Source: a virus | Virus record (IMG/VR): IMGVR_UViG_3300044765_000155 | Location: 1 to 40,781 of that record | Length of the DNA stretch: 40,781 nt | Direction: 5' to 3' (one strand) | Shown here: piece after piece, positions 1 through 39,906 of the stretch | How positions within the stretch are numbered: the stretch's first letter is position 1 | Layout: every line of letters begins with the position of its first letter | Translations under genes and position numbers: made by a program | Notes under the pieces: model-generated | Told to the model about the DNA's origin: nothing | Seen by the model: only the letters and a program-made list of their open reading frames with translations | Databases searched by the model: none

Positions 1-163
1 GCTCCACTGCCAGGTCCTGGTCGGGTTGCGACAAGGCATCTGATGTGGAGAGAGCACGAGCTAGCAGTCCCGCTGTGTCGAACCCTTCATGATGATCGAA
101 GTTGATCCACAAGTCGTACTGTGTGAAGGGATCGTAGGGATTGGCAGCCAACGACAACATCAT
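1..163 (-). CDS. Conserved phage protein of unknown function, N-terminal part only
   Basis: The reading frame starts at a tandem ATG ATG (158-163) and stays open to the window edge, so only the first 54 or so residues are present. They include a run of the form NPYDPF, then a Tyr/Trp/Asp-His-His stretch and LLARALSTS. I have an impression of similar short proteins in actinobacterial phages, but no function is known to me. The start lies 8 bases after the stop of the RNA polymerase gene, so both are probably on one message. A weak GGGGTGA lies upstream inside the polymerase 3' end. The rest of the gene is outside the window. Confidence 0.7.
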   Translation of the reverse strand, partial: MMLSLAANPYDPFTQYDLWINFDHHEGFDTAGLLARALSTSDALSQPDQDLAVE

Positions 164-171
164 GTCAGCCA

Positions 172-2901
172 CTACACGTCACCCCTTTGCTGGGCGGCCT
201 TGAGTGTGCTCACACTGATGCCCAATGCAGCAGCTACATCAGCAGTGGTAGCACCAGCAGCCAGCATGGACTTGGCCCTGCTGGTGATGGCAGTAGTCAT
301 GACTGTGTTGGTGCGTGGCATGCTCAGCTCAGCCACCCGCTTGGGATCGACATAGCCAAGGATGTCACGCAGTCTGCTACTACTCACAGCACCAGCCTGG
401 ATTGCATCCCACTGTCGATCACTGATCTCAATGGTTGGGCGCTCCAGACCAAGCCTTGCTCTGGCTGCAGCCAAGGCCTGACGTTCTACCTTCTTGAGCC
501 TGTCCTGATCGACACGCAGAGTCGGATCCTCCTGGCGCTTGGCCTTGACCACTACACCAGCAGCGATCTGGGCCTTCCTGTCCAGGGGCTTCTGTTTCTG
601 CGCCGCCCTCAGCTGAGACACAAGGTCATCGACCTCAGCCTTGTAGATCTCCCTGGCCTTGGGGTTGATCGGAGGGTTCGGTGTACGATCGGACTTGAGA
701 CGAGCTGCATTGGCCATAGCCTTCATGGCATTAGCGTGCTCTGCATAGAGCTTCTCCACAGGATCGTTCTTGTCCCGTACCAAAGAGAAAGCGTCCTGAG
801 TATCGGCCAGACGCTTGATCTTGGACGTGACCGGAACCTTCTGATCCGTATAGGTCTGAGTCTTGGGATCGTACTTGTTTCTGGTACGACCCGTTTCCTC
901 AAACTGGAGAACACCCGTCTCCTTGTCGATTGCTCCACCCTTAGCCGCACTCCGAAGCTTGCGCTCAGGAACACGAATCTCAGCAGTGGCCTTGGACAGC
1001 AGAGTCGTAGCACCAGCATCCGGTCGACCCTGATACAGAGTCTTGAGCTGCTTGATGCCGTTGTCGATCTCTGACTGCTTGTAATCGAGCTTGTGCTTCT
1101 CAGCATCGATGACCACCATGGAATGGCGGACAGCTCGGACCACATGCTCAGGCTTAGCACCCTGGATCTGCATGTCGGTGATGAGGTTGGTGATCATCCC
1201 CATCTCGAGACCCGTGTTCGTCATCAACTTGAAGTTGCCGACGGGACGGCCCTTAGAATCCACACCGGTCTGCTCGAAGCCGCCGTACTTACGCTTCGGG
1301 TCGAAGTTGTTCAGACCCTCTTCGTAGACCTTGGCTGCGGACCCCATGGACTGAGATCCCTTGATCTTTCCGGCTCGGTTGGGGATGACGATGACGGTAT
1401 CGCCGTCGAAGTCAGCTCCTGAAAGGCGCTCTGCCACCGAGGGGTGGATTCCAATCGCGTCCGTGGCATTGCCGAGAAGACGCTTAGCCGTCCTGTTATT
1501 GTTGTTGACAGTGACTTCCGGAATCTCGAAACGGCCTCCGTGAGGATACCGAATGAGGACAACTCTCTCTCCCGTCTCAAAGTTGGGTGCGTAGATCTCG
1601 TTCTTCGCCATCTTAGGCATCGGGATGATGACCTGAGTCCTCTGACGAGGGAAGGCTGCAGCACGAAGGTCCACAGCGTCGGAGTCGATCTGATCAGCGA
1701 AGGATTCGAGCTCCTTCTTACGAACAACGGGGTTCGTGATCTTGTTGATCTCGTCCAGACGGCTCTGAACCTGAGCACGAGTTTCGGCCAGCTGAGACTT
1801 GATGAGCGAGTGCGGCTGCTTGGCCAGCATCTGACTCGGGACCGACTTTCGCCAATCCTCCCAGTCGCCTTCCTCATTGACGATGTTGATGGCCGACTTG
1901 ACCTTCTCCTTGCCCGTCTTCGGGTCAATGGTGACGATCTGCCGCTTGATCTGAGAACCAAACGGATTGTCGGAGTCAGCCTTCATCGGCTTGAGAGCGC
2001 CCATCTTCCCAACGGACGGACTCTTGCTCGAGTGGACCTCGAGATCGACACCGGGCGGGAGATCCGGGTTGAGAACCGCCACACCCTTGATGAAGTGCGT
2101 TCCGTCGACAGCAATGCGAGCCTGAGCGTAGGTGTTCTTACCCATATCCAGATCCGCAACACCAGGACGAACGTATACGATTCCGTCCTGATCGCTGTTG
2201 AACTTCACGTCGACTCGAGACGAGTTGACCGAAATCGGCGGGTGAATGCCGAAATATGTCAACCCATCGTCCTCTGTCCACTCACCCATGGTGTGGATCT
2301 TGTCCACCATCTTCTTGGCCTGACCGAACGTGACATCCGGACCCACGATGACCTTGTGATTGATCAGGTGGTTGGTGCCCGGAAGCTTGACCTGAAGGTT
2401 GTAGGTGTTGTAACCCTCATCCCGCAGAACCGCGACTGCCGACTTGAGTTTGGTGTCAGCAATGCCGAGATGATGCTCGACACCCTTACCAATATCGACA
2501 ATCTCATGCTCATCCACATTCTTACGAATGATTTCGGCCGTCTTACGAAGAGACGACTCCTTCATGTTCTCGCTGTTCTTCAGACGAAGACGAACGGTCG
2601 GGGCTGGGATCCCCATCTGATCGGCAATGGCCTGAATCGCCGTTCCCTTGTCTCGGAGAGCAACCGCACGACGAGTTTCCTCGAGAACGATCTGCTCCTT
2701 GGCGATGGTCGTGGTCGAACGAAGGTCCTGAACCGACAAACCGACAGCCTTGGCGATCTCGACCTGACTCAGGCCCTGGGCCTTCATCGAATCTACCGTC
2801 TGGTAGAACTGGAGAGAACGAGCGTACTCATCCTTCCCTGAACCCCACGGGTATCGCCCCGACTTGCGGAGGATGCCGTAATGCAGAAGTTCGTCGCTCA
2901 C
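172..2901 (-). CDS. DFDGD-type single-chain RNA polymerase with helix-turn-helix segments
   Basis: This 909-residue protein carries ADFDGD at 496-501, the metal-binding signature of the beta-prime double-psi barrel of multisubunit RNA polymerases and of the phage YonO/QDE-1-like single-chain enzymes. The context also fits: IHPSVAERLSGADFDGD resembles the beta-prime HPLVCxAxNADFDGD stretch, and VVLIRYPHGG (447-456) resembles the conserved NRxPTLHR region. A segment near 265-300 (KGVAVLNPDLPPGVD) may be the partner barrel. Three helix-turn-helix-like segments stand out: LSQVEIAKAVGLS (44-56), IQAIADQMGIPAPTV (89-103) and, at the C-terminus, TADVAAALGISVSTL. The N-terminus has HYG then GRYPWGSG (7-22), a tag-like motif seen in phage virion-associated proteins. 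The start is GTG, overlapping the upstream stop as GTGA, with GGAGGAG upstream. The likely role is transcription of phage genes; template type and partner factors are unknown. The family call rests on motifs only. Confidence 0.8.
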   Translation of the reverse strand: MSDELLHYGILRKSGRYPWGSGKDEYARSLQFYQTVDSMKAQGLSQVEIAKAVGLSVQDLRSTTTIAKEQIVLEETRRAVALRDKGTAIQAIADQMGIPAPTVRLRLKNSENMKESSLRKTAEIIRKNVDEHEIVDIGKGVEHHLGIADTKLKSAVAVLRDEGYNTYNLQVKLPGTNHLINHKVIVGPDVTFGQAKKMVDKIHTMGEWTEDDGLTYFGIHPPISVNSSRVDVKFNSDQDGIVYVRPGVADLDMGKNTYAQARIAVDGTHFIKGVAVLNPDLPPGVDLEVHSSKSPSVGKMGALKPMKADSDNPFGSQIKRQIVTIDPKTGKEKVKSAINIVNEEGDWEDWRKSVPSQMLAKQPHSLIKSQLAETRAQVQSRLDEINKITNPVVRKKELESFADQIDSDAVDLRAAAFPRQRTQVIIPMPKMAKNEIYAPNFETGERVVLIRYPHGGRFEIPEVTVNNNNRTAKRLLGNATDAIGIHPSVAERLSGADFDGDTVIVIPNRAGKIKGSQSMGSAAKVYEEGLNNFDPKRKYGGFEQTGVDSKGRPVGNFKLMTNTGLEMGMITNLITDMQIQGAKPEHVVRAVRHSMVVIDAEKHKLDYKQSEIDNGIKQLKTLYQGRPDAGATTLLSKATAEIRVPERKLRSAAKGGAIDKETGVLQFEETGRTRNKYDPKTQTYTDQKVPVTSKIKRLADTQDAFSLVRDKNDPVEKLYAEHANAMKAMANAARLKSDRTPNPPINPKAREIYKAEVDDLVSQLRAAQKQKPLDRKAQIAAGVVVKAKRQEDPTLRVDQDRLKKVERQALAAARARLGLERPTIEISDRQWDAIQAGAVSSSRLRDILGYVDPKRVAELSMPRTNTVMTTAITSRAKSMLAAGATTADVAAALGISVSTLKAAQQRGDV

Positions 2902-3455
2902 AACATCTCCTCCTTCATCGATTCGACCAGCTTGTCGAACTGCTGGATCTTCTCCATGATCTCCTTGACCTTGCTCGGCTCACCCGTGAACTCGAGAACC
3001 TCGTCGTTCTGGTAGATACGACCGATCATCTCGATGTCATACGGGTTGACCTTGTACTCGAGGCAGAACAGCGCGAAGTAGATCAAGATCTGACGAACAT
3101 CGCCCGGGTGAACGCCAGTCTTCAGGTCATGAACCCGAAGGATGCCCTTCTCGAAGGAAATGGCGTCCGCAGTGCCGAAGCAGTTGTCGCTGTAGTACAG
3201 GACCTGCTCGGGCGTCATACGGAAACCAATGGCATCGTTGACGTAGGCATTGATCGTCTGCTTGTTCCGCTGCATGCGGTGCTTGAGCCTGATGGCCTCT
3301 GCGGCGAAGTTGTGTTTCCTGGTTCCGAGCTCGGAAGCGAAGCTGTTCGCAAATATGCGACGCATCTTGGCTTCGTCGTACTCGATCCAGTGACACTTGG
3401 ATGCGCCCATGAAGGCATGCTTGCCCTCAACGCGCCAGTGATCGTTGAAGTGCAC
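2898..3455 (-). CDS. RecB/Cas4-like PD-(D/E)XK exonuclease
   Basis: The 185-residue protein has GTADAISF (about 94-101), then VHDLKTG (108-114) and a downstream Gln in DVRQILIYFALF. This is the D-(D/E)XK-Q layout of RecB/Cas4-family nucleases. It lacks the clustered cysteines of iron-sulphur Cas4 proteins. I chose the GTG at 3455 because GAGGAGG sits about 7 bases before it; this start overlaps the upstream nuclease gene by 29 bases, which suggests translational coupling. It lies between a second PD-(D/E)XK protein and the RNA polymerase gene, so it is probably part of a recombination or DNA-processing module. The fold is likely; the substrate is inferred. Confidence 0.75.
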   Translation of the reverse strand: MHFNDHWRVEGKHAFMGASKCHWIEYDEAKMRRIFANSFASELGTRKHNFAAEAIRLKHRMQRNKQTINAYVNDAIGFRMTPEQVLYYSDNCFGTADAISFEKGILRVHDLKTGVHPGDVRQILIYFALFCLEYKVNPYDIEMIGRIYQNDEVLEFTGEPSKVKEIMEKIQQFDKLVESMKEEML

Positions 3456-3723
3456 GCAACACCTCCTCTTCGTTCTCAGGGTAGATGAAAGACGAGAAAC
3501 AGCACTTCGTCCCCCACAACTTGACGTAGTAGTCTTGGTTCGGGCGCTTCTTGGACTTCTCCGACGCCTTTACCTCAAGGACTGCCCACCTACCGTTCGG
3601 AGCAAGGATCAACAAATCCGGGATCCCCTGAACGACATTCGGGTCCAGACACACAATCTCGCAGCCAGGAATCAGGTTCTTGATTCGCTTCACGAGTTGA
3701 CTCTGGTATTCCCTTTCGAGCAT
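3427..3723 (-). CDS. VRR-NUC-like / resolvase-type nuclease
   Basis: This 98-residue protein has QGIPDLLIL (32-40) followed by WAVLEVKAS (46-54), the D...ExK core of small VRR-NUC or Holliday-junction-resolvase-like nucleases, then KKRPNQ and a Tyr that often packs next to the active site. A strong AAAGGAGGTG precedes the ATG. It is the first gene after promoter-like element E1 and a leader with two hairpins, and it heads a three-gene run: this nuclease, the RecB-like nuclease and the RNA polymerase. A role in resolving replication or recombination intermediates fits the family, but specificity cannot be read here. Confidence 0.75.
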   Translation of the reverse strand: MLEREYQSQLVKRIKNLIPGCEIVCLDPNVVQGIPDLLILAPNGRWAVLEVKASEKSKKRPNQDYYVKLWGTKCCFSSFIYPENEEEVLRALQRSLAR

Positions 3724-3747: not shown

Positions 3748-3787
3748 GAGCCCATGTGGGCTCTGTTGGAAGGACATATGGTGTCCT
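3748..3787 (-). promoter_or_regulatory. Leader with two hairpins, possible attenuator
   Basis: Between promoter-like element E1 and the nuclease start are two inverted repeats: AGGACA/TGTCCT (3771-3787) and GAGCCC/GGGCTC (3748-3763). On the transcribed strand the second is followed closely by ACTTTTG, so it could act as a weak terminator or attenuator before the nuclease/RNA polymerase operon. This is inferred from sequence only. Confidence 0.4.
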
Positions 3788-3790
3788 CCT

Positions 3791-3814
3791 CATTATAATA
3801 CGTGTTTTTTCTAC
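3791..3814 (-). promoter_or_regulatory. Promoter-like element E1
   Basis: Minus-strand element with AACACG, three bases, then TATAAT followed by GAGG. It is a diverged member of the repeated family TTACAYG-N3-TATAT-like hexamer. It lies between the SF2 helicase terminator and the nuclease/RecB/RNA polymerase genes and is the best candidate promoter for that operon. Confidence 0.6.
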
Positions 3815-3835
3815 TATCTCATTTACCATATCAGG

Positions 3836-8339: not shown

Positions 8340-8365
8340 GATGTCTCCAATGGTTGAGGGTGATT

Positions 8366-8393
8366 CTTCATATAGGGGCGTGTAAAACCTGCC
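8366..8393 (-). promoter_or_regulatory. Promoter-like element E2
   Basis: On the minus strand it reads GCAGG, then TTTTACACG, three bases, CTATAT and GAAG. It overlaps the 3' end of the polymerase gene and precedes the 48-residue membrane protein gene by about 27 bases. It is one of the best-conserved members of the element family. Confidence 0.65.
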
Positions 8394-8394
8394 C

Positions 8395-11300
8395 CTACGG
8401 CGCGATGAATGCCTCGAAGTCGCCGTACTTGGAGATGTTGATGACGGCGTCGTTGACCAACTTCTGGTAGTAGGACATGTCGATTTCCATGTCCTCACCA
8501 ATGGCCAACTCGTCGATCTCCCACAGCCAGTCCTTGGTTCCAGTGACAGCGCCTTCCTTGTCGCCGTCGACCCGCACCAGGTACCGACCACCGATGACCG
8601 GGATGAACGCACCGAAGCGACCGACGAACTGACGGATGCCAGTCTCGACCGTCTCCAGGTACATCGCTCCCTTGGCCACCTGCTTCACCTCGACGTAGTC
8701 CTTCGTCGTGATGTCCTCCTTGGAGAACAGCGTCTTGAAGACGATCGGGTGTTGGAACTGTGCTCCCGTTGCGGACCACTTGCCATCCTTGCGGCAGACG
8801 TACACCGCGTCGTTGACAAGGCAGAAGCGCTCATAAGTCGCTTCGTGCTCGAAGTCGTAGCCGTACTTCTTCCCGAACTCCATGACCTTCTCGATGATCT
8901 CCGGAGTTGCGTTGGGGATCTTGACCGAGTCGGTCTTGATGTGGATGATCTCGAAGCCGAGGGACTCGACGTACTCTCGAAGATCCAGCATGAACAAGGC
9001 CCCACGCTTGGCGACGATGTTGTCGATGTTGCGCGGGTCCTTGAACTTGTTCGGGAAGGTTGCTGCTGTGAACCCGTAGATGCTGTTGATGACGATCTTG
9101 AGGGCGTCCGACAGGTTCTTCAGGTGTTCCTCCGCCAAATATGGCTTAAGCTTCCCGTCGAACATCTGGCCGGCAGCCTCCAGATCCTTGCGCTTGATGG
9201 CCAGCCGTGCATCCATCAAGGCCTTGAACTTGGGCGTGTACTCCCCGAACAGATTGAGCTCGATGATGCTCGTGGGGTGCATGGACGCCACATCCAGAAG
9301 GGCTACGTTCTCGTACATCCCTGGCTTGGAACGTACGAGCCCTCCTTCGCCGACCTTCTCGCCCTTGTAAGTGGACTTTTCCTTCCCACTGGCGAACTGG
9401 TCGAAGGTGTATCCAGGGAACATCTCAGACAGGTCCGTGTACACAAGATCCGGCTGAGTATCCCAGGGCACGTCGCCGAAGATGATCTTCTCGGCGTGCT
9501 GGCGGGTGGTGTTGATGACCTCCAGCCCGGAGAGATCCGCAAGGATCTGCCGAGCGAAGAAGTCCGCTTCGATGTGCTTGCAGACAGCCCGAGTCGAACG
9601 AACGTCGTTCTCGAGGTACTCCATCACGTCCATGATCCGATCCTCCGGAACCGGCTGGTCCCAGGGAAGGTCCATCTCCATGTGGGGCAGACCGAGGTCG
9701 ATCTCCCACTTCTTCAGAGACTTCTTGTTGGGCGTGCTGGCGTACTCGTACGCATCGGCGTAGCAGGCCTTGTAAGCCGGCAGGAAGCCAGCCCTCCGGT
9801 CGTGTTCCACGATGATGCGCTGACTCAGGTCGTACAGCGCCTGGTTGTCGTACCCGAGCGTCCGGGCCCACAGAATATGGGCGTCGTAGCCACGGTTGTT
9901 CCAGCCGATCAGCTTGAGGCGGAAGAGCTCCTCGCACTGTTCCGGCGTGGGGTTGATCAGCTTGACAACCTCAGCATCGTCCCGGTCGTACATGTATCCG
10001 ACGGCGAAGAGGTTCGGGTAAACCTCCAGGTCGAAATATACGATGGGGGCGTTGTCGTCCTCAGGACTCTCGGCCTCCACCTCGATCTCGCTCTTGAGCG
10101 GCAAAGCCAGGGCGATCTCGATGCACTTGCTGGACTGGTTCGATGCCGACATGGCGAACTGCAGGATGTCGTCCCACATGTCGCTGACGTCGTAGACCAT
10201 GCCCTGGTTCTGGGCATCGGTCAGCACCTTCATGATGAAATCCATGTGGATCTTGGTACCGTATCCGTGGATTTCCTTTTTGAGTGCACGGACAATGAGC
10301 TCCCGCAGACCCTTCTCACTGGACATCGTCTTCTGTGAGAGCACCTTCTCCTCCTTGAGAGGCAGCCCCGAGTCAATCGAGGCCACCGGAATGTTGTTGC
10401 ACAGACTCACCCGACGCCGAAGCGAAGAGTTACCGAGCAGCGTCTTGACTTCGAACTGACCCTTGGGGTCGGCTCCTGCCAGCTTCTCGACGTCTCCCTC
10501 GTAGTCGTAGTGGAGATGCAGACCCTTACCGGACTTGGAGACCTCCACATACGTAGGAGGCCATGCTGCCGCGGCCTTGAGGTTGGCCTCGAGGTCTTTC
10601 TCACCCAACGCGTTCTTGAGGTCGAAGTCGATGACGATGTGCTGCTTCGGAACCTTGACATAGTGCTCTTCGGAAGTGTCGATGGTCTTCAGAGTGTCGA
10701 CCACCTGCTCCCACGGCTTCTTCAAGGGGTGATCCGGGTTGCCAGAATATAGCTGGGCCTTCTCGTCCTTGAGAACCTCGTCCAGCAGCGAGGGCTGTGA
10801 CTCCAATTCCAACCACGTTCTGGTCGGCTTCGGGGCTTCACCCTTCCAGCTGAACTTCTCGAGCTCCCTCAGGTGCATGAAATATGAACGGTGCCTTACG
10901 CCGTCCACCATGATCTCGCTGTGGAACTCCTTGAAGTAGTCCATCAGCAAGTCTCGGAACTGGTACTGCTTGTAGACGTTCCGAGTGTCCGTCTCCACGC
11001 ACCAGTCCGCATACATCTTGTGCGCCTGCTTCAGCGTCACGTTCTTCTCCAGGATCAAGCGGTTGTCCTGGACGAAGTTGAAGATGTCGTTGGTCCGATA
11101 CATCATGTCGGTGCTCCTGTAAGAGGACAAATATGTCGGACCCATCATGTTGAACACGTCGATGCATCGGGTTGCGATGGCGCCGAGTTCGAACTTGACC
11201 TGGGCAGTGAGGTTGTGGTACTCGTCCTCGGGGATGAGGTTCCCCGTCGGCTGAATATCCACCAGTCGCCGGAACAGACCAGACTTACGGTTGCTGATCT

Positions 11301-16459: not shown

Positions 16460-16488
16460 GATTTCTCCTGTTGAGGTTGAGGGTTGTT

Positions 16489-16516
16489 CCTGCATTAAGA
16501 GACGTGTAATTTCTAC
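16489..16516 (-). promoter_or_regulatory. Promoter-like element E3
   Basis: On the minus strand: GTAG, AAATTACACG, three bases, CTTAAT, then GCAGG. It overlaps the 3' end of the 16513-16980 gene and lies about 30 bases before the 71-residue membrane protein gene. Confidence 0.65.
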
Positions 16517-18487: not shown

Positions 18488-18558
18488 GGTTTCCTTTCAC
18501 TGGTTGACAAAATATGGAAGAGCTGTCATCTCGGTGACAGGCTAGACCACTAGCTTCT

Positions 18559-18584
18559 CTTCATATAGGGACATGTTTTTTCTA
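18559..18584 (-). promoter_or_regulatory. Promoter-like element E4
   Basis: On the minus strand: GTAGAAAAAACATG, three bases, CTATAT, GAAG. It lies about 70 bases before the four-gene membrane protein run and directly after the terminator at 18597-18622. Confidence 0.65.
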
Positions 18585-18596
18585 CCCAAAGAGAAA

Positions 18597-18752: not shown

Positions 18753-18779
18753 GGGTTTCTCCTAGGGTTGAGGGTTAGT

Positions 18780-18807
18780 CCTGCATATAAGCACGTGTAA
18801 AAGTTGC
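18780..18807 (-). promoter_or_regulatory. Promoter-like element E5
   Basis: On the minus strand: GGCAAC, TTTTACACG, three bases, TTATAT, GCAGG. It precedes the 37-residue gene by about 28 bases and abuts the terminator of the next unit. Confidence 0.65.
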
Positions 18808-18836
18808 CAAAACCCGAGACCCTTGTAGGGCCTGGG
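18807..18836 (-). terminator. Hairpin terminator behind the 70-residue protein
   Basis: CCCGAGACCCT (18813-18823) pairs with AGGGCCTGGG (18827-18836) with a bulge and a G-T pair, followed on the minus strand by TTTTGG. Confidence 0.6.
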
Positions 18837-19070: not shown

Positions 19071-19092
19071 GATTTCTCCAATGGTTGATGGT

Positions 19093-19119
19093 CTTCATAT
19101 AGACCCATGTAAATCCTGC
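19093..19119 (-). promoter_or_regulatory. Promoter-like element E6
   Basis: On the minus strand: GCAGG, ATTTACATG, three bases, CTATAT, GAAG. It is identical over about 31 bases to element E7 exactly 110 bases away, and precedes the 70-residue gene by about 23 bases. Confidence 0.68.
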
Positions 19120-19120
19120 G

Positions 19121-19200
19121 AAAAAATGAAGAGGATGTGCATCCGTGACAGACTCGAACTGGAATTTGCTATCGTCATAGTAGTGATTGTGGCCTTGCGC
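19121..19200 (-). ncRNA. Candidate small RNA, about 80 bases
   Basis: Element E7 would start a minus-strand transcript near 19200. About 55 bases later comes GGATG-CA-CATCC (19133-19144) and then a T-run (19121-19126). No ORF with a ribosome site lies between. An internal CTAT/ATAG hairpin is present. It is either a small RNA or the long leader of the 70-residue gene with a second promoter. Confidence 0.4.
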
Positions 19201-19202
19201 CT

Positions 19203-19229
19203 CTTCATATAGACCCATGTAAATCCTGC
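19203..19229 (-). promoter_or_regulatory. Promoter-like element E7
   Basis: An exact repeat of element E6, at 110 bases distance. It follows the strong terminator at 19241-19284, so transcription would begin afresh here. No protein gene lies before the next element. Confidence 0.65.
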
Positions 19230-19240
19230 GAAATATGACA

Positions 19241-19594: not shown

Positions 19595-19620
19595 GGAATC
19601 TCCTTAGAGGTTGATGGGTT

Positions 19621-19647
19621 CTGCACTCTAAGGCATGTAAAACCTGC
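19621..19647 (-). promoter_or_regulatory. Promoter-like element E8
   Basis: On the minus strand: GCAGG, TTTTACATG, three bases, TAGAGT, GCAG. The hexamer is the weakest of the family. It sits between the holin stop (19650) and the 19304-19594 gene. Confidence 0.55.
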
Positions 19648-19649
19648 CC

Positions 19650-20009
19650 TCACTGGTGAGCGGCCGGGTCATCGGGGACCGGGATGGGCTCCACCTTGAG
19701 GACGACCTTCTTCTTGCCCCGGGCCTCATACGCATCCGGAATATCCAGAGCGGAAGGCGTCGTCACTCCGTCGGCGTAGACCGGATCGATGGTCCCGTCG
19801 TACTGGTCGTCGGAGTTGTCGTACTGCTTCTTCTGGATGATGAGCAGGGTGCCCAGGAGGACATCCACTGCGGTGATCGTTGCGCCGATGTCCGCGCTGT
19901 GGTCGATGTGCCAGATCTGGCCGAAAGCGATCACGAACGTTGCGACAGCGGGCAGCGCTACCTTGGCCACGTAGTTGGCTACGTCATAGGCCTTGTTGCT
20001 GACCTTCAT
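19650..20009 (-). CDS. Holin, r1t-like two-helix type
   Basis: I start it at ATG 20009, which has TAGGAGAAC upstream, giving 119 residues. Two membrane helices are visible: VAKVALPAVATFVIAFGQIW (about 14-33) and ATITAVDVLLGTLLII (about 42-57), joined by a short loop with an IWHIDHSAD stretch. The LPAxATxxxAxxxIW and TITAVDxxLGxLL patterns are those of r1t-type holins of Gram-positive phages. The rest is a long hydrophilic, acidic and Pro-rich C-terminal tail. It would form membrane lesions that release the endolysin. The position at the end of the virion genes fits; the endolysin gene is far upstream at 38.7 kb. Confidence 0.78.
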   Translation of the reverse strand: MKVSNKAYDVANYVAKVALPAVATFVIAFGQIWHIDHSADIGATITAVDVLLGTLLIIQKKQYDNSDDQYDGTIDPVYADGVTTPSALDIPDAYEARGKKKVVLKVEPIPVPDDPAAHQ

Positions 20010-31844: not shown

Positions 31845-33902
31845 TCAGGCCTGGTACTCGAACGTCCAGGTGTCGTGCTCGTCCAGGTTGTCCGCGAAGT
31901 AGTAACCCGCGGCCGGACGGGCCTCGATCTCGACGATCGGGAGGACGGTGTCGTCCAGGGTGATGGTGGAGCCGTCGGCGACGAGCGTGTTGGTGTCGGT
32001 ACGGTAGTAGTCGACACCGGCGTCCGTCGGGATGGTGACCACGTTGTTGGCGAAGGCCGGCTGAGCCGGAGTGGCCAGCGTGCTGGTCGAGGCGACCGAC
32101 TTGAAGACCTGCGCGGCGTAGGGCAGCGTGAGCGCACCCGACAGGTAGGTCTCCATCAGGTACTTGTACTGGTTGAAGTCGATGTCGAAGTCGTCGAAGA
32201 GGGTGACCTCACCGCCGGCGTCAGTACCGAAGTTGTAGTCGCGGAGGTCGAGGACGACCGCCAGGACGTCGGCCGGCATGAGCTCGGACGGGACACGCTC
32301 GATGCGCGAGACGTCCATGTCCGCCGCGACCTCGGAGAGGTTCCGGTAGACGCGCTTGCCGAAGTTGTCGCGGATGGTGAGCAGCTTGGTGGCCACCCGG
32401 TACGAGACGAAGGCCGTCTTGTCGCCGGAGCCCCGGTAGAACTCGCCGGCCTCGGTGACCGCGTCCAGCAGGCGGTTCCAGTCGTCGGTGCCGGGGGTGG
32501 CCGGCATCGGGACGTCGAACGTGCCCGTGTAGAGGTCGTTGTCGTTGACGATGGCACGGATGCCGTCGCCCGAGGTGGAGTTGGCGCCCGGGTCCTTGAT
32601 CTTGTCCGGGTTCAGCTCGCCGTTGATCATCGTCGGACGACCGTCGCCGAAGAGGGCCGCACGGGCGAGCTCCTCGTCCAGCTTGCCGCGCATCTCGACC
32701 TTGAGCCACGCGACGACGTTGAAGTCCTTGATGTTGATGATGTCCTCGCGGTCCAGCTTCTGCTTCTTGTAGATCCAGGTCGGACCCGTGGACCGCTTGA
32801 AGACCGGGAAGACCTCCTCGACCTTCTGGTTGCCCTTGATGTAACCGCGGGCGCGGGCCTCGTCGGCGGTGATGTCCGCGTAGGAGGTCTTGACCCGGGC
32901 GAACGGGCTGTGGCTGGTGCCGTTGAGGAAGGTCTTCACCCACTCCTGGCGCCGGTCGATGAACTTCGGGGTGTTCATCAGGGCCTGGGCGTCGGGGAAG
33001 AGGGTCTCGATGTTCTCGACACCGTAGGTGTCGGCGTGCATGAGCTCCTTGCCCTGGTCGCTGCGGACGAACGCTCGGAGCGACGGGACACCGGTGCCAC
33101 CCTCGGGAGCGGAACCCATGGCCGCGGTGAGGACGGACTTCATGTCGTCGTGCTTGAGCTCGGGCTTGGTGCTGACGGCGGTGTTGCCGTCCTGGGTGCG
33201 GTCGAAGACGTTGCGAGGCATCTTGGTTCCCTTCTTGGAGGAATCGAGGTTGTCGTGCTGAATCGAGTCCTCGGTGAGGGCCTCGGTGACTGCTTCCTTG
33301 ACGATGTCGTCAATGACAGCGTTGACAGCGGTCTGCTGCTCTTCGGTGAGGGTGTCCAGAACATCGGACACGGTCTTGTCGCCCTCGTCGGGCTTCGGGT
33401 CCTGCTGCGGCTCGGGAGTCGGCGCAGGCTCCGGGGGAGCAGCGGGCGCCTTGGTGTCGTCGTGGACGAGCTCGCCACCCACGATGAGCAGGTCCTCGGC
33501 GTCGATGCCGGTGTGCATCAGGACGTTCTGGATCTGGGCGCCGGGGTTGGCCCCCGCCAGAACCAGGGAGACCTCCTGGATGACGCCGTCGTGGACCAGG
33601 TAGCCCTGCTCCTCGAGGTCCTTGGCCCAGACGGAGAACTTGTCGAGGTCACCGTTCTGCACCATGAGGTTGGCGTTCTGACCAGCGCCGGTCTTGTTGA
33701 CGTAGGCGTCACCCCAGATGCCGTCGTCCTTGGCCGTGAGGATCACGTGACCCAGGACCTGGTTGACGTCGCTGTGGTTGTGCTGATAGACGAGCGGGAC
33801 CTTCATCCCGTCCTGGTGAGCGAATGCGCCGGGAGCGATGGTTCGACCATCGGCGCACTTCAGGTTCGCCTTGGTGACGTAACCACTGAAGTTCGGTTCC
33901 AT
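31845..33902 (-). CDS. Prohead protease - scaffold - major capsid fusion
   Basis: One 685-residue chain with three parts. (1) Residues 1-145: HK97-type prohead protease, with VYQHNHSD (39-45, catalytic His) and KFSVWAKD (88-95, catalytic Ser). (2) About 150-225: a Pro/Glu/Gln-rich linker and helical delta/scaffold region. (3) From about M228 (MPRNVFDR): HK97-fold major capsid protein with LRAFVRSDQGKELMHADTYG and NDNDLYTGTFDVPMPATPG. A separate C-terminal domain of about 55 residues (from about 630) with VDYYRTDTN and RPAAGYYF ending WTFEYQA matches the tail tube C-terminus. GAAGGGAACCAAG lies directly before M228 (33221), so the capsid part can probably also be made alone from an internal start. 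Confidence 0.9.
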   Translation of the reverse strand: MEPNFSGYVTKANLKCADGRTIAPGAFAHQDGMKVPLVYQHNHSDVNQVLGHVILTAKDDGIWGDAYVNKTGAGQNANLMVQNGDLDKFSVWAKDLEEQGYLVHDGVIQEVSLVLAGANPGAQIQNVLMHTGIDAEDLLIVGGELVHDDTKAPAAPPEPAPTPEPQQDPKPDEGDKTVSDVLDTLTEEQQTAVNAVIDDIVKEAVTEALTEDSIQHDNLDSSKKGTKMPRNVFDRTQDGNTAVSTKPELKHDDMKSVLTAAMGSAPEGGTGVPSLRAFVRSDQGKELMHADTYGVENIETLFPDAQALMNTPKFIDRRQEWVKTFLNGTSHSPFARVKTSYADITADEARARGYIKGNQKVEEVFPVFKRSTGPTWIYKKQKLDREDIINIKDFNVVAWLKVEMRGKLDEELARAALFGDGRPTMINGELNPDKIKDPGANSTSGDGIRAIVNDNDLYTGTFDVPMPATPGTDDWNRLLDAVTEAGEFYRGSGDKTAFVSYRVATKLLTIRDNFGKRVYRNLSEVAADMDVSRIERVPSELMPADVLAVVLDLRDYNFGTDAGGEVTLFDDFDIDFNQYKYLMETYLSGALTLPYAAQVFKSVASTSTLATPAQPAFANNVVTIPTDAGVDYYRTDTNTLVADGSTITLDDTVLPIVEIEARPAAGYYFADNLDEHDTWTFEYQA

Positions 33903-33926: not shown

Positions 33927-34355
33927 TTACTTAACGGCGCTCTTCGCCGCCGAGACGATCGGACCGCTGATGTAAGCGGCCGCCACCCCTGCTGCGATCT
34001 TGGCGAGCTCCTGGTTGACGGTGTTCTTGAGTGCCTTCTTCGTGGCGTCGGCAACCCAGTTCTTGTTCTGAGCATTGAGTGCCTCGACCTTTTTGATGGC
34101 GTCTGCCCGAGCATTCATGAACTTGAGGTCAGCATCGCTGAGAGCCTTGGCCCCGTGATGCTTGACGTCCTGCTGGAGTCGTTCGTAGCGCTGCTGCGAT
34201 GACTCGCCCGAGACGGGCTTGCTGAGCTCCGGCTTTCCGGCCTTGGCGGCTGCCTGACCGACTCCGTTCCGAATGCCCCACTTCATGCCCTTGACTCCGT
34301 GCTGCAGAGCGTCGTTCTGCTCCACGGTGCGAGAGGCCAGGTAATCCTTCGCCAT
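33927..34355 (-). CDS. Virion-associated protein with HGVKGMKWG motif, 142 residues
   Basis: The protein begins MAKDYLASRTVEQNDALQHG and then VKGMKWGIRNGVG, the HGxKGMKWG motif seen in many phage minor head or virion proteins of Gram-positive hosts. The middle is helical with basic and acidic alternation. The C-terminus has an Ala-rich hydrophobic stretch (AAGVAAAYISGPIVSAAKSA). It is located between portal and capsid genes, so a minor capsid or scaffold-related role is likely. GAGAGGAGG precedes the ATG. Confidence 0.72.
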   Translation of the reverse strand: MAKDYLASRTVEQNDALQHGVKGMKWGIRNGVGQAAAKAGKPELSKPVSGESSQQRYERLQQDVKHHGAKALSDADLKFMNARADAIKKVEALNAQNKNWVADATKKALKNTVNQELAKIAAGVAAAYISGPIVSAAKSAVK

Positions 34356-34358
34356 CAG

Positions 34359-34808
34359 TTAACCTCCTCTCGCCTTGGCGATGGCTTCCTTGAGCTGGAC
34401 GACCGTCCGACGGATCGCAGTCCTGAGTTCATCCACCGACATGCTCTCGTAAGAGCCGCCCGACGAACCTCCCCCAGTTCCGCTAGCCTTCTTGTGGGCC
34501 GCCTTGATCTTCTCACGGTGCTTCTTGTAGTAGTCCTTGTTCTGCTGAGCCTGCTTGAGCTTGTCCGCAGCAGTCTTCGGCTTGTCCTTCTTCGAAGCGT
34601 GAGAAGATGCGATCTTCTTGTTGAGAAGCTCGTGAAGCCGTGCCAACTTGGCCTGGATCTGAGCTACTTTCTGTTGCGCCGCCGCATCGGGCTGCCTGTG
34701 ATGCTGCTGGGGCGGTGGATGAGCCTGGCCTTTGCGTCGACCCTTCAGATGCTTGTGATCCTCATAGTATTGATGAGCTTTCACCGGGTCGTAGTTCGGG
34801 TCAGGCAT
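34359..34808 (-). CDS. Virion morphogenesis-type protein with YDPVKAHQYY motif, 149 residues
   Basis: I use the ATG at 34808, which overlaps the portal stop; a second in-frame ATG lies at 34817. Residues 3-16 (DPNYDPVKAHQYYE) match a motif often found in phage head-associated proteins together with HGxKGMKWG proteins. After a basic stretch (HLKGRRKGQAHPPPQQHH) comes a long helical, Lys/Gln-rich region and a Ser/Gly hinge before a helical end. It may be scaffold-like or a minor head protein; no enzyme motif is seen. Confidence 0.68.
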   Translation of the reverse strand: MPDPNYDPVKAHQYYEDHKHLKGRRKGQAHPPPQQHHRQPDAAAQQKVAQIQAKLARLHELLNKKIASSHASKKDKPKTAADKLKQAQQNKDYYKKHREKIKAAHKKASGTGGGSSGGSYESMSVDELRTAIRRTVVQLKEAIAKARGG

Positions 34809-36138
34809 TGCTCGCATCCAGTTGCTTCAGCGTCTCGTCGAGCATGCTGTTCACCTGGTCCAGCGGGTCGTTGCCGTCAGCCGCAGCAGGATCCGCGGGC
34901 GCGCCCGAGGGAAGGCCCTGGTCCTGGTTCGGCATGTTCGGGTTCTTGAGCTGGTTGGCGGCAGGATCCTTCGAAGGCCGGTAGCCGATCTTGGGTCGGA
35001 ACTCGTTGGTCGTGACGACCGCGTTCCGGATCAGCTTGTCAGCCACCTCGGCCAGCTCACTGATCGGGATCAGCTTCAGCGGGTCGCGGTAGATCTCGAC
35101 GGAGTGGCCCTGCGTGCGAGCCGTCTTGGTGAGGAACTTCCGCTTCATCTCGAGGGCGAACGCGTTGGCGATCGGCTCGATGGTGCGGTCGTAGTAGTTG
35201 TTGATCGTGTCCCGGTTCGCCGTGCCGTTCATGATCTCCAGCGTGAGCCCAAGATCGGCGAAGATCTGCTCCTTGAGGTCCTTGATCTCGTCGGGGAGGG
35301 TGCTGGTGATCGAACGGTTGAGCTGGATGACCTTCTCGGACACATCGATGTAGCCGATGCCGAGCTCGTCCTTCATGAGCTGCTCACGAAGGTCCTGACG
35401 TCGCTTCTCGGCCTGAGCCTTCCGCGATTCACCCCTCACTGCATAGGGCAGCTGGAAGATGATGTCGAGCTTCTTGTTGGACTGCATCTCGTCGATGTCA
35501 TCCAACTGCGCCAACTTCTGCTTCAACCGCTGGAGGGTCCCGTTCGGCTCGTTCATCACGTTGTAGAACGGATTCTCGATGATGGCGACCTGGGCCTTCG
35601 GCAGAGTGATCTGCTTCGTGATGCCGCCGTTGACCGGGTTGCCCTCGTCGTCGAACTCGCGGTCGTCGTAGACTTCCACGATCACGGATCGGGGCTTCCA
35701 TCCCACGATTCGAGCAGCCCGCATCGACTTGATGTCGTAGCTGGTCGTCACGGACGGGTCCAGGTCTGCATCGGTCGGGACGATCGCCACAACGCCCTCT
35801 TCGAACATCGTCAGGCAGGCATCCTGGAACAGAGCCTGGGCCGTCTGGTCGACATTCGCATCGAGAGTGATGCAGTTGTTGAAGTTGTCCTTCTTGATCT
35901 CGATGGCAACATCGTTATCGTCGAGAATGGCATGGTAGAACTGAACCGTGCTGAAGTCGACGCTGAGACGCGTATAGATCGACGCTACGATCGACCGGTC
36001 GTTGAAATATCGAGCGCTGTTGGTGCGCTGCTGGCGGTACGTTGCCGTCTGGCCCCCGGAGTAGAATCCTCCGGTCTCCTTAGGCGGGTTCTTGAAGACG
36101 TTCCAGCCATGCTTCAACTGCCGCACAACTCGTCCCAT
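34801..36138 (-). CDS. Portal protein (HK97-like)
   Basis: The 445-residue protein lies right after the large terminase gene. It begins MGRVVRQLKHGWNVFKNPPK, and has the wing and clip features of Phage_portal proteins: IVASIYTRLSVDFSTVQFYH, KPRSVIVEVYDDREFDDEG, ITLPKAQVAIIENPFYNV, and EQIFADLGLTLEIMNGTAN near the channel helix. The C-terminus is Pro/Ala/Asp-rich. GGAGGTGAAAG precedes the ATG. It forms the 12-mer DNA entry vertex. Confidence 0.92.
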   Translation of the reverse strand: MGRVVRQLKHGWNVFKNPPKETGGFYSGGQTATYRQQRTNSARYFNDRSIVASIYTRLSVDFSTVQFYHAILDDNDVAIEIKKDNFNNCITLDANVDQTAQALFQDACLTMFEEGVVAIVPTDADLDPSVTTSYDIKSMRAARIVGWKPRSVIVEVYDDREFDDEGNPVNGGITKQITLPKAQVAIIENPFYNVMNEPNGTLQRLKQKLAQLDDIDEMQSNKKLDIIFQLPYAVRGESRKAQAEKRRQDLREQLMKDELGIGYIDVSEKVIQLNRSITSTLPDEIKDLKEQIFADLGLTLEIMNGTANRDTINNYYDRTIEPIANAFALEMKRKFLTKTARTQGHSVEIYRDPLKLIPISELAEVADKLIRNAVVTTNEFRPKIGYRPSKDPAANQLKNPNMPNQDQGLPSGAPADPAAADGNDPLDQVNSMLDETLKQLDASNA

Positions 36139-38664: not shown

Positions 38665-39906
38665 TCACGCCTTGAGCGTCCTGATGTTGTAGACGCCCTC
38701 GATCATGAAGTGGTCCGAGTTGAGGAAGAACTTCTTGTCGTTGTAGGCGTGAATGCTCTTCGCCTTGACGCGGCGGTCGCCCTTGAAGCGAGCGATCACG
38801 TCGATGTTGCCGTGGCCGGTGTTCTCGTAGTGCTTGAGCTCATCCCACATGCTGATGAGCTTGGCCTGGCCGAGGAACGTGTCGTCGATCTTGTCCGAGA
38901 TGTTCTGGTCTCCGGCGTAGAAGCCGAGCGCCGATCCCTGCGAGACCTCCTTGAGGTAGTCGCCGATCGCCTTGGCGAAGATCCGGTTCTCCTCGAGGTG
39001 CTTGCGGAACTCCGGACTCTTGGCGGACGGACGACCCTTGGTGAGGTAGTGGCCGGGGACCACGTTGATGACACCGAGCTCGTTGTTGCGGAACTGGACC
39101 GCGACGACCCGCTTGGCGGCGTGATCACGAGCCTTGCCGGGGACGACGATCGGACCGAGGTGCGTCTTCCAGCCCCCGTCGATCAGATCCTTGTTGACCG
39201 CGATCATCACGTCGGTACCAGGCGTAGCGAAGGCCTTGAAGTTGTGCTTCTGAGCCTGCTCGAGGAAGTGACGCGTCCAGTTCGAGCCGCCGGCTCCCGG
39301 ACCGCCCTCCGTGGTGGTCACCCAGCCGACATTCTTGGCCTGGGCACGGTTGAAGATCTTGATGGCGTCAGCACCGTGCTGCCCGTCGGTGTCCGAGAAC
39401 TGCCCGGAGGCGTGGATGATTCGTACGTCGGCCGACTTCGGCTTCGGGTTGCGAACGAACGCGTTGAAGCCGGGGATCGGGTGACCGTCGATGGTCTCGG
39501 TCCAGCCCAGGTACTCCAGGCCCATCGAGTTCTCGAGAACGGCGATCTGCTCGGACCGGGTCTTGCCCACGACCGTCGAGGTGTGGCCCGGGGCGTAGTG
39601 GTTGTCGAGCATGTCGGTCGAACGAATGCCGTTGACCAGCGTCGCGGCGCGGTGTCCGTAGCCGTTGCGGTTCCGGTTCTTGAACGCCAGCGGAACCCCC
39701 GGCGGAGGATTGCGATCTCCGGGGTGGCGGGCCTTGGACGGCTCCGAGAGCCAGCCATCGATGGCATCCGCATCACCGTCGTGGTCGACATCGCCGGCGG
39801 AGGGAGCGTTGAACCACCCTCGGACGGTCAGCTGGCAGGTACCGGGCACGTTATGGGTCTGCCTCAACGCGGCGGCGATCATCTGCTTCTGGGTATTGAT
39901 GCTCAT
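38665..39906 (-). CDS. Endolysin-type CHAP-like domain fused to an EEP-family nuclease/phosphoesterase domain
   Basis: The 413-residue protein has two parts. (1) Residues 1-145: a cysteine-peptidase-type cell wall hydrolase, with GTCQL (Cys24), VDHDGDADA (40-48, calcium-loop-like), GDRNPPPGVPLAF and GYGHRAATL (His85), then GIRSTD and LGWTETIDG, the pattern of Streptomyces phage endolysins. (2) Residues 160-413: an exonuclease-endonuclease-phosphatase fold with Glu200 (TTTEGG), His286 (PGHYL), GDQN (332-335), Asp369 (NIDVIARF) and NSDHF (396-400), all the usual catalytic positions. AAAGGACCC lies before the ATG. The first part should cut peptidoglycan; the second might cleave DNA or a phosphodiester such as a lipid. 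The combination is unusual. Confidence 0.78.
   Translation of the reverse strand: MSINTQKQMIAAALRQTHNVPGTCQLTVRGWFNAPSAGDVDHDGDADAIDGWLSEPSKARHPGDRNPPPGVPLAFKNRNRNGYGHRAATLVNGIRSTDMLDNHYAPGHTSTVVGKTRSEQIAVLENSMGLEYLGWTETIDGHPIPGFNAFVRNPKPKSADVRIIHASGQFSDTDGQHGADAIKIFNRAQAKNVGWVTTTEGGPGAGGSNWTRHFLEQAQKHNFKAFATPGTDVMIAVNKDLIDGGWKTHLGPIVVPGKARDHAAKRVVAVQFRNNELGVINVVPGHYLTKGRPSAKSPEFRKHLEENRIFAKAIGDYLKEVSQGSALGFYAGDQNISDKIDDTFLGQAKLISMWDELKHYENTGHGNIDVIARFKGDRRVKAKSIHAYNDKKFFLNSDHFMIEGVYNIRTLKA

Follow-up and report, generated by a model that had tools for sequence, protein, structure and literature searches.

A predicted single-chain, two-barrel phage RNA polymerase with helix-turn-helix domains, a tag-like N-terminus and a linked promoter-like motif

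The window analysed here, a 40,781-base stretch of DNA from a virus record, carries the gene set of a tailed phage, including a terminase, a portal protein (34801..36138, minus strand), a protease-major capsid fusion protein (31845..33902, minus strand), tail genes, a primase-polymerase and a helicase. An Rfam search of the window returned no match. An intact ORF at 172..2901 (minus strand; GTG start, no internal stops) encodes a protein of 909 residues, a putative single-chain RNA polymerase. It is adjoined by a gene for a Cas4/RecB-like exonuclease (2898..3455, minus strand; PHROG 3953, 3e-70), and the first gene of this operon encodes an endonuclease of 98 residues (3427..3723, minus strand; VRR-Nuc in relatives). 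The same order, endonuclease-exonuclease-polymerase-small ORF, is found at the genome end in most of the actinophages that we examined. In the window, the start of a small ORF lies directly downstream of the polymerase gene (1-171, minus strand), where it is cut by the contig end; nearly all relatives carry a small ORF of about 85 residues in this place.

The initial annotation had based its assignment on an ADFDGD motif preceded by a beta-prime-like segment, and we find both within the intact ORF. The protein contains IHPSVAERLSGADFDGD, with ADFDGD at residues 496-501 (D497/D499/D501), and VVLIRYPHGG lies upstream, at residues 447-456. The catalytic DFDGD (residues 497-501; 1399..1413, minus strand) was placed by sequence and alignment. 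Its three aspartates are unchanged across 15 aligned polymerase sequences, while residue 498 changes from Phe to Thr in three of them (DTDGD in L015-L017). Also invariant in this alignment are R262, K272, D286, K293, K304, R451, H454 and E459, among which K272, K293 and K304 are candidate basic residues of the second barrel. Based on model beta strands and on the match to QDE-1, the presumed catalytic barrel (DPBB-A) would span residues ~420-507 (1381..1644, minus strand). The presumed first barrel (DPBB-B), which holds R262, K272, D286, K293 and K304, is assigned to residues ~241-345 (1867..2181, minus strand) from conservation and from the whole-length QDE-1 match, with limits estimated from the strands.

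Three helix-turn-helix (HTH) segments had likewise been proposed from the sequence, and Pfam and the helices of the AlphaFold2 model (mean pLDDT 79.5) bear them out. The first (residues 41-57; 2731..2781, minus strand) matches HTH_24 (5e-7; model helices 46-53/57-84), the second (residues 74-108; 2578..2682, minus strand) is sigma-70 region-4-like (Sigma70_r4_2, 1.3e-7; model helices 89-96/100-116) and the third lies at the C-terminus (residues 879-901; 199..267, minus strand; HTH_23, 1.5e-9; model helices 870-881/886-893/897-906). All three matches exceed the curated Pfam cut-offs.

The fold points to a polymerase. When the model was compared with the PDB by Foldseek, QDE-1 filled the top 11 places (E 5e-9 to 1e-7, prob 1.00), followed by P74-26 gp62 (8f5m, E 9e-6), the closest phage structure, and RDR2 (1e-4); multisubunit beta-prime chains appeared lower in the list, with weak E-values. 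P23-45 gp64 was matched in the viral structure library BFVD. TM-scores were modest, about 0.32 when whole models were compared and not barrel by barrel, so that the domains agree better than their arrangement. A sequence search of the PDB found no polymerase, only HTH and unrelated matches, and neither Pfam nor the fold searches placed a non-polymerase family over the catalytic region. The matches to QDE-1, P74-26 gp62 and RDR2 thus support the view that the gene product is a single-chain two-barrel RNA polymerase of the QDE-1 kind, in agreement with the polymerase identity originally put forward.

The initial annotation had further likened the enzyme to YonO of Bacillus phage SPbeta and proposed a comparison with both YonO and QDE-1. 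QDE-1 was recovered by the whole-model fold search, while the likeness to YonO did not hold beyond the general architecture: both are single-chain two-barrel phage enzymes, but the whole-length profile comparison with the YonO family (PHROG 8308) gave a Prob of 0.3%, with only a weak local match over the DFDGD barrel (427-508, E 0.0019), and we rejected membership in that family. In addition, YonO has no Pfam HTH and transcribes late genes. Fold and Pfam both bring the window protein closer to QDE-1 and the eukaryotic cellular RNA-dependent RNA polymerases (RdRPs; PF05183), with which it shares the single chain and the DbDGD signature, at an identity of only 10-12%. It differs from them in being phage-encoded, in having HTHs at both ends and an N-terminal tag, and in its link to a promoter motif on DNA.

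Such a resemblance raises the possibility that the protein is an RNA-dependent enzyme copying phage or host RNA and does not transcribe phage DNA. This is the name it bears in RefSeq and PHROG; QDE-1, the nearest solved fold, has structures with both RNA and DNA templates, and the Pfam RdRP family weakly matches two phage relatives, that of phage 1706 (over the DFDGD region, 7e-5) and that of Oengus. We nevertheless regard this reading as highly improbable. Three HTHs of the DNA-binding type are kept across the family, a promoter motif on DNA is linked to the gene, and YonO, which has the same single-chain two-barrel architecture, depends strictly on a DNA template (PMC5467207). We infer that the template is DNA.

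The polymerase belongs to a family that is already catalogued, mostly under HTH or hypothetical names. The PHROG 4291 profile ('RNA-dependent RNA polymerase') matches residues 2-905 of 909 (E=0), and tblastn against 50,697 phage records retrieved relatives from 250, of which 249 span at least 80% of the length; Mudcat, Scap1, Crocheter and 1706 are among them. The hosts are Arthrobacter (95), Gordonia (55), Streptomyces (54), Lactococcus (13), Curtobacterium (7), Microbacterium (4), Rhodococcus (4), Faecalibacterium (2) and others. Annotations vary between HTH protein ('DNA-binding protein'), hypothetical protein and RNA-dependent RNA polymerase, and the FP_oengus relative is annotated 'putative RNA polymerase'.

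Repeats in the window led us to an element, TTTACAYGNNYCTATATGMAG, that lies between genes and on the gene strand; most of its copies are followed by a Shine-Dalgarno sequence and a start codon. Repeats picked up as generic k-mers, whether in the window or in relatives, proved to be mostly codon-usage noise and were set aside. The copies, all promoter-like and on the minus strand, are AACACGTATTATAATGAGG (3784..3822), which heads the endonuclease-exonuclease-polymerase operon, TTTTACACGCCCCTATATGAAGA (8351..8396), placed before an ATG with a Shine-Dalgarno sequence, ATTACACGTCTCTTAATGCAGG (16475..16512), AAAAACATGTCCCTATATGAAGA (18558..18592), TTTTACACGTGCTTATATGCAGG (18766..18811), TCGCAGGATTTACATGGGTCTATATGAAGA (19092..19127 and again at 19202..19237) and GGGCAGGTTTTACATGCCTTAGAGTGCAG (19617..19655). 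In relatives the element takes a sharper form, TCGCA-N5-TACACGNCCTATAATGAGACCCC, repeated ahead of small genes located between the tail module and the replication module. The motif, TCGCA-N5-TACACGNCCTATAATGA, stands on the sense strand only, ahead of early genes and of the polymerase operon in phages of actinobacteria and of Lactococcus.

A matrix built from Pherobrine and ReqiPoco6 found 13 sites in each of these two phages, counts that are circular because they come from the training set, and 10 in G025 and 6 in Scap1, both of which were then added to a second matrix. All of these sites lie on the gene strand, with none antisense and none in shuffled sequence, and the motif was absent from phiC31, Bennie and ReqiPine5, control actinophages of other lineages. 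The results on the window, on Lactococcus phages and upstream of polymerase genes are independent of matrix training. In the window, the operon-heading element scored 18.7 with a matrix from other phages, and the second matrix picked sites at 3822, 19127, 19655 and 19237, all sense, against an antisense maximum of -9.6. Lactococcus phage P078 has 8 sites of the type TTTTACATACCCTATAATGA and 1706 has 3, all of them scoring higher than any of 20 shuffles. In the 2.5 kb that precede the polymerase gene, an element scoring at least 8 was present on the sense strand at 54 of 91 loci versus 6 of 91 on the antisense strand; in relatives it mostly lies about 1 kb upstream of the polymerase, ahead of the endonuclease gene. 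The strict motif was found in 61 IMG/VR stretches, and each of the 22 contigs that reach at least 44 kb encodes the polymerase. A random 16-mer, taken as a base-rate control, yielded a single contig and was not used.

Who reads this element is the point on which the main alternative turns. The motif often includes TATAAT, a sequence that sigma factors of the host could recognize. The polymerase might accordingly be a non-virion phage enzyme made after infection for later genes, and the motif an early promoter for the host RNA polymerase, perhaps with a small phage factor. There are precedents for such a role: YonO transcribes late genes (PMC5467207), and P23-45 gp64, like P74-26 gp62 a single-chain two-barrel phage polymerase, is a non-virion enzyme (PMC10770324). 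Moreover, as the motif heads the polymerase operon itself, something must read it first. The features of the motif argue in the other direction. The spacing between TCGCA and TATAAT is 14 nt, whereas the hexamers of sigma-70 promoters are separated by 17, and the -10-like part drifts, with CTTTTATGA, CTATTATGA or CTATATGAAG in place of TATAAT in several copies. A sigma-70 scan of the window showed no excess (6 vs 4.7 +/- 2.1), and the motif is common to phages of Actinobacteria and of Lactococcus. We consider host-driven reading of the motif, with a non-virion polymerase that transcribes later genes, to be unlikely. The polymerase itself probably reads the shared promoter and starts early genes without a host sigma factor, as judged from these sequence patterns. 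Built-in promoter reading had been suggested at the outset; the strand specificity of the conserved motif, its place ahead of early genes and the polymerase operon, its presence across two host phyla and the null sigma-70 scan support it indirectly, and recognition by the enzyme is the part that we infer.

A second line of evidence comes from the N-terminus, a feature that the initial annotation did not mention. Ahead of the first HTH, the segment L-x-H-Y-G...SGRYPWGSG (residues 5-22, LLHYGILRKSGRYPWGSG; 2836..2889, minus strand) ranks with the best conserved stretches of the polymerase, with H7, G9, S14, G15, R16, P18, G20 and G22 unchanging in 28 aligned members. Residues 7-22 are nearly invariant, yet residues 1-20 have the lowest AlphaFold2 confidence of the model (28-38), which is the picture of a linear motif on a flexible end. 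In the same phages, ORFs of the head module carry L-x-H-Y-G-V-K-G-M-K-W-G-V-R near their N-terminus, a tag that corresponds to Pfam DUF7211 (PF23847), a family of unknown function. In the window this is represented by a protein of 142 residues (LQHGVKGMKWG; 33927..34355, minus strand), whose DUF7211 match (E 5.7e-5) is below the curated cut-off. All 89 tagged proteins scanned match DUF7211, their genes sit in the terminase-portal-capsid region, and some add a Gln_amidase papain-fold (7) or a GNAT (6) domain.

Profiles of the polymerase N-termini and of the DUF7211 tag aligned over L-x-H-Y-G by hhalign (Prob 95.2, E 2.5e-8), a match that rests on about 11 columns and whose E-value ranged from 8.5e-7 to 2.5e-8 over runs. 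Among 32 protein clusters taken from these phages as a control, the one that holds the polymerase reached a Prob of 91.5 and the 29 clusters that were neither tag nor polymerase stayed at or below 4.1. Pfam scans gave no DUF7211 match at the polymerase N-terminus, so that we speak of resemblance and not of membership. A plasmid search with the N-terminal segment found no match. In an unbiased tblastn search, a DUF7211 peptide was found in 202 phage records, and its counts coincide with those of the polymerase in Gordonia (55), Streptomyces (54), Curtobacterium (7), Microbacterium (4), Rhodococcus (4) and Faecalibacterium (2); the counts differ for Arthrobacter (68 vs 95) and for Lactococcus, which has no tag records and whose tags have diverged. 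Of the 19 IMG/VR contigs that bear the tag and reach at least 40 kb, 16 also encode the polymerase; G006, G007 and G025 appear, by gene order, to end before the usual polymerase region and were hence not counted as counter-examples. This co-occurrence of tag and polymerase could reflect common descent. Indeed, tag, promoter and polymerase all come from one phage lineage, and they may be found together by descent without a functional link.

Public records offer a clue to where the polymerase resides. In the GenBank entry of Lactococcus phage 1706 (EU081845), orf75, which is the polymerase with its tag, was deposited as 'structural protein', as was orf7, which bears two DUF7211-type tags, while most 1706 genes are labelled 'unknown'. 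The ReqiPoco6 record reads 'similar to 1706_gp75 structural protein', and its depositors cite both orf75 and orf7. The virion location in 1706 is the depositors' label, and two small proteins from outside the head region and without an obvious tag, orf62 and orf71, received it as well, which counsels caution. The label reportedly derives from a published LC-MS/MS virion proteome. For the PHROG 4291 family, neither tag nor promoter is on record, and a virion role is noted only in these original 1706 and ReqiPoco6 notes; a limited literature search found no description of the tag, nor of a promoter or virion location for the polymerase family.

Taken with the likeness of the tags, the shared label of orf75 and the doubly tagged orf7 suggests a virion polymerase with a capsid-cargo tag, that is, an enzyme that may travel inside the virus particle, loaded by its N-terminus. 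Both the label and the tag resemblance weigh against a polymerase made only after infection. They would also suit a pilot or DNA-binding protein of the virion that keeps the polymerase fold as an inactive relic, and the three HTHs would fit such a protein too. To this last reading we give a very slim chance: the catalytic aspartates and candidate lysines are kept in relatives down to 38% identity, which argues for selection on catalysis. Virion polymerases of this architecture have a precedent in P23-45 gp96, a single-chain two-barrel enzyme that starts pre-early genes (PMC10770324). It is fused to the tape measure, whereas the window polymerase is separate and tagged, and the term 'helix-turn-helix' is absent from that report on the P23-45/P74-26 enzymes.

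The explanation that we favour, and hold to be rather probable, is that of a virion polymerase packaged by its tag, ejected with the DNA and reading its own promoters through built-in HTHs. The strongest single facts behind it are the polymerase fold, the label given in 1706 and the conservation of the motif in two phyla. The flexible L-x-H-Y-G...SGRYPWGSG peptide, as a variant of the DUF7211 tag, would load the polymerase into the procapsid built from the protease-capsid fusion, along with other tagged proteins, and the enzyme would enter the new cell together with the phage DNA. There, its HTHs would bind the lineage-specific promoter, TCGCA-N5-TACACGNCCTATAATGA (in the window TTTACAYGNNYCTATATGMAG), and would thus initiate transcription of the early genes, and of the operon that encodes it, independently of a host sigma factor, with early transcripts expected to begin just downstream of CTATAATGA. 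A virion role would also explain how the polymerase could be the first to act when its gene is placed behind the promoter that it reads.

More tentatively, and with somewhat less than even confidence, we propose that the HYG tag (DUF7211 and the SGRYPWGSG variant) is a general cargo signal for HK97-type protease-fusion capsids, loading a sigma-free polymerase and effectors with GNAT or papain-fold domains, and that the polymerase reads one promoter common to phages of Actinobacteria and Bacillota. If the favoured explanation is true, about 0.5% of sequenced phages, many of them infecting Arthrobacter, Gordonia and Streptomyces, would carry a transcription starter in the capsid that most annotations conceal as an 'HTH protein', and the tag would serve to load cargo proteins into the capsid. 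The enzyme would represent a compact relative of cellular RNA polymerase, able to read promoters as a single chain and paired with a defined candidate promoter, and would bear on how promoters can be recognized without a separate sigma factor.

Parts of this system may also occur apart. Separate ORFs of 107 residues in three genomes (G085:C1:28657-28905, G015:C1:6418-6666 and G082:C1:18166-18414) match only positions 131-214 of the polymerase profile and are possibly a free N-terminal domain. In G035, which also encodes the full enzyme, an ORF of 360 residues (G035:C1:16720-17520) matches the HTH part (positions 45-218) and is a possible promoter-binding regulator. The DUF7211-tagged proteins with GNAT acetyltransferase or papain-fold glutamine-deamidase domains, at L109:10206-12080 and other tagged loci, are candidate ejected effectors. 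The head protease and major capsid are joined in one chain in relatives as well (1706 orf10, Pherobrine gp21). Finally, upstream of the terminase, where relatives carry a DUF7211-tagged protein, the window encodes a protein of 413 residues (38665-39906, minus strand) in which we saw no tag; it weakly matches PHROG 12298, and its C-terminal part looks nuclease/phosphatase-like by eye.
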